A stretch of DNA of 59,397 nucleotides, taken from NCBI GenBank assembly GCA_944324285.1, contig CALUVR010000003.1, forward strand, positions 64,001-123,397, written 5' to 3'. Position numbers and translations under genes: made by a program. Source of the stretch: Candidatus Gastranaerophilales bacterium (GTDB lineage: Bacteria; Cyanobacteriota; Vampirovibrionia; Gastranaerophilales; Gastranaerophilaceae). How positions within the stretch are numbered: position 1 is the stretch's first letter; each line of letters starts with the position of its first letter. Positions 17,591 through 52,758 of this stretch are shown piece by piece. Under the pieces are notes generated by a model. It saw only the letters and a program-made list of their open reading frames with translations, did not search any database and was not told the DNA's origin.

Positions 17591-17613
17591 GTGGTATTAT
17601 AATCACAACATGT

Positions 17614-17687
17614 GCGCCCGTAGCTCAGTTGAATAGAGTGTCGGTCTCCGAAGCCGAAGGTCACGGGTTTGACTCCCGTCGGGCGCA
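17614..17687 (+). tRNA. tRNA-Arg (anticodon CCG) with A19-U56
   Basis: 74 bases. Acceptor GCGCCCG/CGGGCGC, D stem GCTC/GAGT, anticodon stem TCGGT/GCCGA around loop CTCCGAA (anticodon CCG, reading CGG), five-base variable loop, T stem ACGGG/CCCGT, discriminator A; CCA is not encoded. The T loop is TTTGACT rather than TTCGANT and the D loop is AGTTGAATA rather than carrying GG: C56 has become U and G19 has become A, a compensated tertiary pair. A20, an arginine identity base, is kept. TATAAT precedes it. Confidence 0.88.
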
Positions 17688-17717
17688 ATTAGTATTCAAA
17701 GTTGATAAGGAGATGTT

Positions 17718-18767
17718 ATGCGACCTTTAGAGTATGTTTTTAGTGTGCGAAACGAAGATTTTTGGAAAGTTTTTACTGTTTTGGGTATTAAAATTCGCCT
17801 TGGTAATGGAAAATATTTTAATAAATTTTTTCAGAAGATAATTAGAAAATCATTCATAAACTCATTAAATTTCCTGTTAGACTTTTGGGGCGTTAAAAAC
17901 AATATAAATTTGAACGCAGATTATGCTGCCTTGATAAAAAATATGGATGAAAAAAGTGTTGAGAATGTAAATTTGACTCTAGGTTTATTTATAATTCATG
18001 ATAAAAATTCGGCAAAAGCCTTTTTAAAAAATTTAAGAAGGCAGATTCTTTCATCTAGAAAGTTTCGTAAAGAATATAGTAAAAGTATTGAAAATATAGG
18101 TGCTGAAAAGTATTCCTATAATGGTTATATGCTTCCGCTCAATCATTTTGAACCGAGTGTATTTAATTATAAGCATTCTATAAATGAACTGGTTAGGCTC
18201 GATAAAATCAGGCAAAAAGATATTATAGATGTTGGTGGCTTTATCGGTGATTCAGCTCTGGTATTTTCAGATTACACGGATAAAAAGATATATTCATTTG
18301 AACCTTCAAAAGAAAATTTTGAATTAATGAAAAAGACAATTGAGTTAAATAATCTGACTAATGTTGTACCTGTAAACTGTGCTTTAGGAGATAATGTTGC
18401 TGAAAAATTATACATAAACGGAGATGGGTCAACGGTTACGGTAGCCCCCCCCCCTTCATCTAAAAGCTTAGCTGGAGCCGTGATTGAGGCTACTACATTA
18501 GATGATTTTGTAAGAAAAAATAATATTGAAGTAGGATTAATAAAAGTTGATATTGAAGGATATGAGCAGCATTTTTTAAAAGGTGCAGAACAGACAATAA
18601 AGACTCAAAAACCTGCCTTGTTAATAAGTATTTATCATAATATAGATGACTACCTTCACATAAAACCAATGATAGAGAGTTGGAATTTAGGTTACAAATT
18701 CAAAATAAGAAAACCGGAAGAATCTTTATTCTTAGAAACCTTGTTAATAGCAGAGATAGAAGATTAA
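17718..18767 (+). CDS. FkbM-family methyltransferase with coding C10 tract
   Basis: 349 residues. The N-terminal 130 residues are basic and not recognised. The FkbM methyltransferase domain covers about 165-345: DIIDVGGFIGDSALVFS (SAM motif I), IYSFEPSKENFELM (motif II) and LIKVDIEGYEQHFL. Such enzymes O-methylate sugars, often on surface glycans. Residues 243-247 (APPPS) are encoded by ten consecutive C; gain or loss of one base would truncate the protein before motif LIKVDIEG. It lies alone between two tRNA-Arg genes. AAGGAG precedes the ATG. Confidence 0.82.
   Translation: MRPLEYVFSVRNEDFWKVFTVLGIKIRLGNGKYFNKFFQKIIRKSFINSLNFLLDFWGVKNNINLNADYAALIKNMDEKSVENVNLTLGLFIIHDKNSAKAFLKNLRRQILSSRKFRKEYSKSIENIGAEKYSYNGYMLPLNHFEPSVFNYKHSINELVRLDKIRQKDIIDVGGFIGDSALVFSDYTDKKIYSFEPSKENFELMKKTIELNNLTNVVPVNCALGDNVAEKLYINGDGSTVTVAPPPSSKSLAGAVIEATTLDDFVRKNNIEVGLIKVDIEGYEQHFLKGAEQTIKTQKPALLISIYHNIDDYLHIKPMIESWNLGYKFKIRKPEESLFLETLLIAEIED
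18445..18454 (+). repeat. Homopolymeric C10 tract inside the FkbM gene
   Basis: Ten consecutive C in an AT-rich coding region, in frame as given. Such tracts are prone to slipped-strand mispairing; length changes not divisible by three would switch the gene off. Confidence 0.75.
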
Positions 18768-18937
18768 ATTCTATTTGACTAATAAATCCTCTGATGATAA
18801 GATAAGAGAGGTTGACAGCCGGTTGTTTAAACAATCGAAGGGTGCCGGTAAGATATTAATTGGTACTTTAAGAATAAGGCAGACGAGGAAATCAAAATTA
18901 GGCGTTTTGTCTGTAAGTAAAAATAAAATATAAAAAT
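18768..18937 (+). other. Intergenic stretch between FkbM and tRNA-Arg, possibly a structured RNA
   Basis: No ORF. Paired segments are visible: CCTCT/AGAGG near 18788-18813, two CCGG segments around TTGTTTAAACAA, and CAGAC/GTCTG (about 18882-18914) followed by an A-rich stretch. It does not match 6S, SRP, RNase P or riboswitch consensus that I know. It may be only tRNA leader sequence. Confidence 0.25.
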
Positions 18938-19011
18938 GGCTTTGTAGCTCAGTAGGATAGAGCGACGGTTTCCTAAACCGGTGGTCGTGGGTTCGACTCC
19001 CACCAAGGTCA
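18938..19011 (+). tRNA. tRNA-Arg (anticodon CCT)
   Basis: 74 bases. Acceptor GGCTTTG/CAAGGTC with a G-T wobble, D loop AGTAGGATA with the normal G18-G19, anticodon loop TTCCTAA (anticodon CCT, reading AGG), T loop TTCGACT, discriminator A, no encoded CCA. The base pair at 27-43 is an A-G mismatch. It is followed by a terminator. Confidence 0.9.
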
Positions 19012-19013
19012 AA

Positions 19014-43260: not shown

Positions 43261-43980
43261 CTATTTACAACTTGTTTTACCATTTTTATATAAGTCATTA
43301 CAATGAAGGTAATCCATATTTCCTTCATACACAACCCATGTTCCACAATATTCAGGAATAGTTCCTAAACAGTAATTCATAAAATACGTTGATCCACTTG
43401 AATATGAAGAATAACCTTGTGGCATAATTTTGTTTTTAATATTACCATTACCACCACAATATAACTCAAAACTAAACATATCTTTACCAAACATATTCGG
43501 TTTTTTAGGGCCATTAATATCATAATAAAAATGCATAAGAAAAGAATTATTTTGTAAGAGGATAAATGAACCACCATCAGGTAGTTTATACCCAAATTCG
43601 GTATCCTCTTCTGATATTCCCCATATACGCTGCCCCTTAAGATTATAGTAGTCAGAATTAAAACAACTTTCATAAAATTTTTGCTTTGAACACTTCTTTA
43701 TATTAGCGAACTCAGAAACAAAATAACTAGTCCAAAGCCTTGTATAAGAAGTATTTCTTCCAGCAGAACTCGGACAATCCCAACTAGATGCCGGCCCATA
43801 TTTATTTTCTACACGAAGATAGGCTTCTTGAAGCAGTGCATACATTTTTCTTACTTTTGAGACTGTTACTTTCTCCTGATATTTTTCTATTATTGAAGGC
43901 AACGTCATTGCTGCAACAATTCCGATTATTCCTAAAGTTATCAAAACTTCTGCCAAAGTAAAAGCGTTTCTCATTTTCAT
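43261..43980 (-). CDS. Prepilin-like protein without adjacent XRE gene
   Basis: 239 residues. MKMRNA then FTLAEVLITLGIIGIVAAM, alanine at -1. The body has six to eight cysteines (SSWDCPSS, KKCSKQ, ESCFNS, ELYCGGNG, MNYCLG, EYCGTW, HCNDL) and aromatic loops, quite different from the other three. GGAGGG precedes the ATG. Unlike the other prepilins it has no divergent XRE regulator; upstream lies a short leader ORF with a poly-C/G tract and glgA. Confidence 0.85.
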   Translation of the reverse strand: MKMRNAFTLAEVLITLGIIGIVAAMTLPSIIEKYQEKVTVSKVRKMYALLQEAYLRVENKYGPASSWDCPSSAGRNTSYTRLWTSYFVSEFANIKKCSKQKFYESCFNSDYYNLKGQRIWGISEEDTEFGYKLPDGGSFILLQNNSFLMHFYYDINGPKKPNMFGKDMFSFELYCGGNGNIKNKIMPQGYSSYSSGSTYFMNYCLGTIPEYCGTWVVYEGNMDYLHCNDLYKNGKTSCK

Positions 43981-44173: not shown

Positions 44174-44233
44174 TTATTTTTTTGCTCCCCCCCCCCCCCC
44201 CCCCGAAATTCTATCTATATTAGCTTTTTGCAT
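44174..44233 (-). CDS. Short ORF with poly-G tract, downstream of glgA
   Basis: Minus-strand ATG with a strong AAGGAGG five bases before it, 17 bases after the glgA stop. Reads MQKANIDRISGGGGGGAKK as given; the glycine run is the C18 tract. One base fewer would extend it to a 30-residue basic peptide ending TAG right before another ATG. It resembles the G-tract leader ORF of the GT11 gene in its MQ start, length and position of the tract. Confidence 0.45.
   Translation of the reverse strand: MQKANIDRISGGGGGGAKK
44187..44204. repeat. Homopolymeric C18 tract
   Basis: Eighteen consecutive C on the plus strand, i.e. a G18 run in the minus-strand short ORF. The longest homopolymer G/C run in the window. 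Confidence 0.8.
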
Positions 44234-50702: not shown

Positions 50703-51770
50703 ATGAGTATTATTACAGACGACGGGAACAGAACAAAAAGAATTGATATTAATCAAAAAAATCCGAATACAAAAGCGGAAAAGATTGATTATGACAGAAA
50801 TTTTGAGAATTCTATCCGCCCGAAAAGTTTTGACACATATATAGGTCAATCAGCACTTAAAGAAACTCTGAAAATTACAATAGCTGCGGCAAAGAAAAGA
50901 GAAAAACCGCTTGACCATCTGCTTTTCTACGGACCTCCGGGACTTGGAAAAACGACTCTTGCAGGCGTAATTGCAGAACAAATGGGCGTTGAAATAAAAA
51001 TCACATCAGCTCCGGCGCTTGAAAGACCGCGTGATATTATCGGGATTTTAATGTCATTAAAAGGCGGCGAAATTCTTTTTATTGATGAAATCCACCGTTT
51101 GAATAAAGTTGCGGAAGAAATTCTCTATCCTGCTATGGAAGATTTTTTCCTTGATATGACAACAGGAAAAAGTCAGACAGTTAAAACGCTGCGTGTTCCG
51201 CTCCCGAAATTCACGCTAATCGGTGCAACCACAAAAGCAGGAGAATTATCGGGTCCTTTGCGCGACCGTTTCGGGATAATTCACAGACTTGAATTTTACA
51301 CGGATGAAGAACTCTCGCAGGTAATAAAAAGAACCGCCGGAATTTTGGAAATAGAAATTACGGATGACGGCGCCCTTGCGATTGCAAGACGCTCAAGAGG
51401 AACCCCGCGTATTGCAAACAGACTAATCAAACGAGTGAGCGATTATGCACTTGTAAAATCAGATGGCACAATTGATGAAAAAATTGCGAATAAAGCGCTC
51501 GATACATTGAAAATCGACGGCTACGGACTTGATTCGACAGACAGAAGCCTTTTGAAATTAATCATTGAAAAATACGACGGCGGGCCTGTCGGAATTGAAA
51601 CGCTTGCTGCTGCACTCGGGGAGGATGTCAGAACTTTAGAAGATGTCTGTGAGCCATTTTTATTGCAGGCAGGTTTATTGCAGCGGACGCCAAGGGGAAG
51701 AAGGGTTACGCCTGCAACATACCGTCACCTCGGTTACAAAAATGCCGTTGACCAGCAAAGTCTGTTTTAA
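50703..51770 (+). CDS. ruvB: Holliday junction helicase motor RuvB
   Basis: 355 residues. [19 protein letters not shown], Walker [16 protein letters not shown], Walker [11 protein letters not shown], sensor 1 [20 protein letters not shown] with the arginine finger, and the C-terminal winged helix ([19 protein letters not shown]). It drives branch migration with RuvA. No ruvA or ruvC next to it. It ends overlapping the convergent GT11 gene by four bases. Confidence 0.96.
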
Positions 51771-52663
51771 GCTTTGGAACTTATAAATTCCTTTTTTGAA
51801 GCTAAAGATTTCGCATCGCGTGGCAATCTTATCCAGTCATCAGGCACTGTTTCACTATCATAACGGAATTGACACCATGGTTCAGGTGCAATAATCGTTT
51901 TATCCGGATTATCAATAAGCCAAGCACCCCACCAGGAAAATGAAGAATTTGCGCAAATCCCATGCTTGCAGCCTTGAAGCAGATAAATGTCATAAGGAAT
52001 ATCTGTATTTCCTGATGTGTAAACTTTAAACGGATAATCTATTTTTAAATTTTCTCTCAACCACTCCGGCTCATCTGAGATTGCAATAAAAGTGCAATTC
52101 GGATATTTTTCTGCCATAAGTTTTGTTGCTTTTTGATAGTACGTCATATCGCAGCATTCCAATTTATATGTAATATAATCTCCGCGTCTAACATGTATAA
52201 AAATCGGGCATTCATAGCTTTCTATTTCTTTTCGTAACCTCAGAACATTTTCATCTTTTATCGGTTTAAATGTAAAATCTTTTCTGATTTGTGGTTCTAT
52301 TTCTTTAAAATATTTTTCACACTGAAAATATCCCGAATAATAAACATCTCCTTTTTTAGTTAATAGTTCAGGATCAAAGAATCCAGAATCCTCATAGGTA
52401 TAACCATTAAACATAAAAAATTTAAAGAATTTTGGATGCGCTTGCACAAATTGAAATTTTTCTAGTCTGGATATATTAAAATGCTTTTTTAGTAATTTGG
52501 TAGGAGCTTTTTCAATTTTTACATTAAATAAAGTTTCAAAAGGTGAGCCCCACATCCACTTATCAAAATAAACTTTTTCTTTGGTATAATACTCGACGGC
52601 TTTAGCAAAAGCATACTGAAACATGTTGTTTCCTAATCTGCCCTGGAATTTTACGACTTTCAT
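51767..52663 (-). CDS. GT11-family glycosyltransferase (alpha-1,2-fucosyltransferase-like)
   Basis: 298 residues. [20 protein letters not shown] at the start, FIHVRRGDY in the middle and [15 protein letters not shown] near the end are the three GT11 signatures; the HxRRGDY motif binds GDP-fucose. It probably adds an alpha-1,2-linked fucose (or similar sugar) to a surface glycan. GGAGG lies seven bases before the ATG. The ATG overlaps the stop of an upstream leader ORF that carries a G11 tract, which points to on/off switching. Confidence 0.88.
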
Positions 52664-52758
52664 GATACTGCCTCCAATAGAGGCGTAAAACCAGCTGCTA
52701 TAAGGCTAAACAGCCCCCCCCCCCTGACTGAAAATTCAGTTATAATTGAGTTTTGCAT
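52660..52758 (-). CDS. Leader ORF with G11 tract, overlapping the GT11 start
   Basis: ATG with GGAGG five bases before it opens a 32-codon frame: MQNSIITEFSVRGGG, then a hydrophobic part [10 protein letters not shown], and TGA that overlaps the GT11 ATG (ATGA). The frame passes through the G11 tract. With one base less it would stop at TAG 27 bases after the tract start region; with one more it would stop even sooner. Only lengths of 8, 11, 14 keep the overlap. I read it as a switchable translational-coupling leader. Confidence 0.6.
   Translation of the reverse strand: MQNSIITEFSVRGGGLFSLIAAGFTPLLEAVS
52714..52724. repeat. Homopolymeric C11 tract before the GT11 gene
   Basis: Eleven consecutive C on the plus strand, the G11 run of the minus-strand leader ORF, 50 bases before the GT11 start codon. 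Confidence 0.8.

Follow-up and report, generated by a model that had tools for sequence, protein, structure and literature searches.

A C10 tract in an FkbM methyltransferase gene and surface-linked homopolymer tracts in Gastranaerophilales

An FkbM gene with an in-frame C10 tract

The window, that is, the whole stretch of 59,397 nucleotides analysed here, comes from an uncultured Candidatus Gastranaerophilales bacterium and carries an FkbM-family methyltransferase gene that stands alone between two tRNA-Arg genes, both here and in the sister species G005.

17613..17688, + strand, tRNA-Arg(CCG), left neighbour of the FkbM gene; same slot in the nearest relative
17718..18767, + strand, FkbM-family methyltransferase, 349 aa, intact (ON) in the assembly; PF05050, E=3e-15; solved relative 2py6
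18445..18454, + strand, C10 homopolymer in the FkbM gene, spanning codons 243-246 (Ala-Pro-Pro-Pro); proposed slippage switch
18937..19012, + strand, tRNA-Arg(CCT), right neighbour of the FkbM gene; same slot in the nearest relative

The preliminary description had placed an in-frame C10 at 18445-18454 inside an FkbM methyltransferase, and our analysis confirmed it: the position is exact, the 349-aa ORF is intact, and the PF05050 domain covers residues 171-327 (57.1 bits against the curated Pfam cut-off of 22.7). The protein shares this domain with the FkbM family and its solved relative 2py6 (profile match E=5e-14), and differs from them in its long N-terminal part, which is variable in an alignment of 24 homologs. 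The same alignment and the predicted model showed that the family motifs DVGGFIGDSA, FEP, TLD and KVDIEGYE are kept along the domain.

The tract corresponds to bases 728-737 of the ORF and encodes A-P-P-P at residues 243-246. The frame is open at C10 and, by frame alone, C7 or C13 would also be ON. The computed frames give a product of 349 aa with C10, 250 aa with C9 and 248 aa with C11. In the predicted model (mean pLDDT 81), residues 243-246 fall in a low-confidence loop (234-254) flanked by strands 228-233 and 255-259. The length of this loop differs among the 24 homologs, so three-base steps should be harmless and one-base steps fatal.

The C10 run is far from chance. C8 words occur 18 times in the window versus 0.19 expected from dinucleotide shuffles of the window, and an order-1 model predicts approximately 0.23 runs of 10 or more per 2-Mb genome. 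Furthermore, 3% of the proline codons in the window are CCC, and approximately 0.006 occurrences of GCC-CCC-CCC are expected per genome. The distribution of C-run lengths in the window is bimodal, the longest ordinary run being C6 and the next ones C10, C11 and C18. The FkbM tract thus has the traits of a contingency gene, namely a G/C run of at least 8 inside an ORF, beyond chance, where a one-base change truncates the product. Homopolymers of this kind are error-prone, and the sequence is a single consensus from a draft assembly (2.03 Mb in 55 contigs), such that the true tract might have another length. Nevertheless, we consider an assembly or sequencing error extremely improbable, as the open frame obtained with C10 is precisely the one that agrees with all homologs, and tract lengths elsewhere form coherent frame classes.

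The tract in orthologs and in other FkbM genes

The nearest ortholog, which occupies the shared tRNA-Arg slot in G005, is 81% identical at the amino acid level. The two genes align without gaps over 1050 nt with 17% differences, and the ortholog has GCCCGACGTCCA where the present genome has GCCCCCCCCCCT, corresponding to four substitutions in the tract. Therefore, the locus shows no sign of a length change, and the tract is either young or was lost in G005. FkbM orthologs lack a tract at the C10 site. A GTDB scan for further alleles returned the sister species and two distant matches and nothing else, a search with the FkbM flanks in 20 relatives revealed no copy with a different tract length, and an exact flank search in viral contigs yielded none. 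The gap-free, tract-less ortholog, the lack of a second allele and a second FkbM gene of this genome that carries no tract were counted against switching. However, many phase-variable genes of Campylobacter are also rare, and hence non-conservation lowers the case for phase variation of the FkbM gene without excluding it.

Other FkbM genes of the genus carry tracts within the ORF near the N-terminus: G11 in G004, and an interrupted G8AGGG in G008 and G011, all three in open frames. Tracts were thus present at 3 of 15 FkbM loci (p ~0.01 against an assumed 3% of genes).

The main rival to switching is an incidental origin of the tract, in which a few substitutions in C-rich loop codons (GCCCGACGTCCA to GCCCCCCCCCCT) were tolerated in an unconstrained loop; the gene would then be effectively always on, and slippage would only produce deleterious mutants. 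The gap-free alignment with four tract substitutions at 17% overall divergence agrees with such an origin, as do the tract-less orthologs, the presence of MutS1, and the strand and position of the tract, since a coding-strand C run in the middle of a gene is atypical among the tracts of this genome. It is at odds with the rarity of CCC and the very low expectation for GCC-CCC-CCC, with the recurrence of tracts in other FkbM genes of the genus, and with the location of all other coding tracts of the genome at surface genes, as described below. Furthermore, C10 falls inside the switching length range of Campylobacter (tracts of 8 or more, PMC6321876). We regard an incidental tract as rather unlikely and lean towards a phase-variable FkbM gene that is turned on and off by slipped-strand mispairing at C10; the in-frame tract, the truncation upon a change of one base in either direction and the beyond-chance length were counted in its favour, together with the genome-wide placement of tracts at surface genes, the FkbM tracts elsewhere in the genus, the slippage pattern of the family, the variable low-confidence loop and the methyltransferases of the Campylobacter fetus phasome. 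For the FkbM gene itself, this evidence is indirect.

Tracts across the genome lie at surface and glycan genes

We observed 36 C/G runs of nine or more in the genome, compared to approximately one expected, and only five runs of exactly eight. The genome-wide listing with neighbours that the preliminary description had called for was completed, and all 36 runs were inspected in their sequence context. Seven are intergenic repeats, 21 belong to type IV pilin-like genes, seven to glycan genes or loci, and one to an adhesin-like gene. Each of the 29 tracts that are not part of such repeats falls within or next to a surface or glycan gene or neighbourhood, and no non-repeat tract is clearly away from surface functions, contrary to the prospect, also raised in that description, of tracts being equally common in unrelated genes. 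Its proposal of a contingency-locus style of surface variation held in this respect and in the ON and OFF frames elsewhere in the family, which fit slippage, but had to be modified in that glycan genes are not the dominant class; the 21 pilin-like genes are.

The glycan class comprises FkbM, GT11, RgpF, a GT2-like gene that scores below the Pfam cut-off, a cytidylyltransferase (CTP_transf_3), PS_pyruv_trans, and one gene without a Pfam match that adjoins an aminotransferase-like gene. The G11 leader tract of RgpF (rhamnan synthesis F) leaves the gene OFF here (L048, 4001-4011) and ON in the sister species (L092, 1499-1509). Together with the ON and OFF frames of the pilins, this difference matches the signature of slippage in the family.

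Six loci (L045, L047, L050, L059, L063 and L064) contain intergenic hairpin-like repeats, CCCTCTCCCTCAAGGGG ... CCCCCCCCCTTGAAAAGGGGGGG, with C8-C10 runs. The seven intergenic runs are components of such repeats and not obvious switches.

The two other long runs of the window were examined in the same manner.

52714..52724, - strand, G11 (coding strand), part of the leader ORF that precedes GT11
52660..52758, - strand, leader ORF MQNSIITEFSVRGGG...LLEAVS-stop, 32 aa; its TGA overlaps the GT11 ATG (ATGA)
51767..52663, - strand, glycosyltransferase family 11 (GT11); PF01531, E=1e-26
44187..44204, - strand, G18 (coding strand) in a short leader ORF, post-glgA
44174..44233, - strand, leader ORF MQKANIDRISGGGGGGAKK-stop around G18
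43261..43980, - strand, pilin-like gene (N_methyl) with its own RBS and ATG

Three long C/G runs had been reported for the window, two of them in glycan loci. The C10, C11 and C18 runs exist, but their placement required correction: the GT11 run belongs to a leader ORF whose end coincides with the GT11 start codon, and the post-glgA run is in a leader ORF approximately 200 nt upstream of a pilin-like gene. The leader ORF reaches the GT11 start only at the present tract length (mod 3), and we infer from this overlap that the leader could be translationally coupled to GT11, which also has its own GGAGG. Stops occur between the G18 leader ORF and the pilin-like gene, suggesting that this leader is probably a remnant.

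Poly-G tracts in the leaders of pilin-like genes

The 2-Mb genome contains approximately 80 N_methyl (type IV pilin-like) matches, 21 of which have a poly-G leader tract (L031-L062, L119-L158). The tract-less genes that we inspected mostly have a short normal leader (MKK, MNK) directly before (A/G)FTLAEV. The tract-bearing genes instead display an RBS, an ATG, 9-12 codons, G9-G13 and a linker, followed by the prepilin motif, usually in another frame. Hence, the tract lies between the RBS and start codon on one side and the mature protein on the other, its length sets the frame, and several lengths occur. The leader peptide with its poly-G should be removed by prepilin peptidase.

The prepilin motif was in the ON frame with the leader ATG in 1 of 18 pilins of this genome, 3 of 19 in G033 and 5 of 24 in G021. 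Pooled over the three genomes, 9 of 61 were ON (p ~0.001 versus one third, a value that is overstated since such pilin-frame tests treat paralogs as independent) and 52 of 61 were out of frame in the consensus. The ON length was 11 in 15 of 16 counted loci of G033, and 12 in 19 of 24 loci of G021 despite linkers of 12 to 231 nt. Although the ON length is constant within each of these two genomes, the tracts themselves span G10 to G14. Therefore, the frame across the tract looks selected, with the tract length itself differing by about one base. In a tandem pilin pair of G033 (L114), near-identical flanks enclose G12 in one copy and G10 in the other. The frame shift needed is mostly minus one in G000 and G021, and plus one in G033.

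Transcriptional or ribosomal slippage could also employ such tracts, yielding a fraction of product in frame at any genomic length in place of heritable switching. Low-level slippage of this type could make use of the 52 pilins that are out of frame in the consensus. In contrast, the needed shift differs by genome, and copies with near-identical flanks have tracts of unequal length, as heritable slippage predicts. We consider constant slippage very unlikely. Programmed frameshifting as the source of the pilin frames is likewise disfavoured, as it would need one direction while the direction varies by genome. Contig ends near tracts were not taken as evidence for mixed lengths, since assemblies also break at repeated pilin motifs.

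The largest set was found in G021 (L182-L211), where 111 tracts were counted; of 30 that were sampled, at least 24 are in leaders of pilin-like genes of approximately 310 aa. The bodies of these pilins are constant at the N-terminus (98% identity) and vary in their C-terminal parts (22-42%), and the set is possibly an antigenic repertoire. In contrast, none of the 15 tracts of G005 is at a pilin-like gene, which implies rapid turnover in the set of switched genes. Tract counts among relatives range from 0 to 111 per genome within the same family and from 0 to 6 in other families of the order. A lack of mismatch repair was rejected as a simple cause: in a repair-gene comparison that covered MutS1, this protein was matched in 59 of 59 genomes whatever the tract count. 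With MutS1 present, slippage need not be very frequent.

Discussion

The best-known examples of homopolymer phase variation come from Campylobacter, Helicobacter and Neisseria. We are almost certain that a lineage-wide system of phase variation by homopolymer tracts also operates in Gastranaerophilales, the non-photosynthetic gut relatives of cyanobacteria. Its more specific form is likely to be a very large, OFF-biased repertoire of phase-variable pilin-like genes, from approximately 20 to perhaps 100 loci per 2-Mb genome, with poly-G in the leader, leader-tract ORFs also preceding GT11, RgpF and, in a relative, Stealth, and FkbM as a side member with its own recent tract.

In the proposed mechanism, the C10 allele keeps the frame open and the 349-aa enzyme is made. 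If slipped-strand mispairing yielded C9 or C11, the resulting frame shift would end the protein after 250 or 248 aa, respectively. Strands and helices would be lost from residue 255 onwards, the conserved TLD and LIKVDIEG motifs among them, which would turn the enzyme off. With steps of three bases, only the flexible Pro loop would become longer or shorter. The substrate is probably a surface glycan. The C10 tract is one of approximately 29 in this genome that are surface-linked. Most of the latter are poly-G in type IV pilin-like leader peptides, where the run would set the frame between the leader start codon and the prepilin motif.

The slippage switch itself is already known from Campylobacter and Neisseria; what appears to be new is the lineage, the scale, and the placement in pilin leaders. 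The Campylobacter phasome likewise has 7-11 G/C in ORFs of glycan and methyl-transfer genes that switch by frame shift, mostly as poly-G on the coding strand, a feature shared with the present genome (PMC6321876), and the core phasome of Campylobacter fetus includes SAM-dependent methyltransferases with G(7-10) (PMC6321876). It differs in belonging to another phylum, and pilin leaders dominate here. The preliminary description credits Campylobacter and Helicobacter with tracts in FkbM genes as such, which the papers that we found did not confirm.

Neisseria pglH, lgtG and pgtA function in glycosylation and lipooligosaccharide. They are known phase-variable genes and carry poly-C or poly-G of the same length as the tracts here, (C)10, (C)11 and (G)11, respectively, and the interrupted pgtA allele of some strains, GGGAGCGGG, resembles FkbM of G008 and G011, although these are gene families other than FkbM (PMC5320596). 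Translational phase variation is also seen in Neisseria with pilC (poly-G) and opa (CTTCT, approximately 11 copies, each with its own repeat), in which the reading frame depends on a repeat in the 5' part of the gene and paralogous copies are many (PMC5320596). The likeness of the pilin leader tracts to these systems concerns the mode of switching. In contrast to pilC and opa, the product itself is pilin-like here, and its tract precedes the prepilin cleavage motif within the leader; there are approximately 20 copies in this genome and at least 24 of the 30 sampled tracts in G021; the FkbM tract, for its part, is mid-gene.

We found no relevant paper that links Gastranaerophilales or Melainabacteria with phase variation in the open-access literature. 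Homopolymer phase variation appears as a dominant genome feature of these uncultured gut commensals of the cyanobacterial phylum, acting mainly on pilins. It predicts stochastic surface diversity inside one gut population, which existing metagenome reads can test directly. Furthermore, since the consensus shows most tract genes out of frame, annotation pipelines will report them as absent or truncated.

Several other tracts were observed at individual surface and glycan genes. In the present genome, G12 (L058, 4990-5001) puts a 1349-aa PATR/PMP-like surface protein out of frame with its signal peptide. G16 (L033, 4986-5001) is near the 3' end of the cytidylyltransferase gene in a sugar-biosynthesis-like cluster, and might change the C-terminus or the coupling to the next gene. 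In G005, a Stealth-type capsule phosphotransferase has a G11 tract near its start (L089, 1499-1509), and at four loci (L088, L091, L095 and L097) the tract falls within the N-terminal region of a Sec-like signal peptide; the large secreted proteins concerned exceed 500 aa and are open at the locus end.
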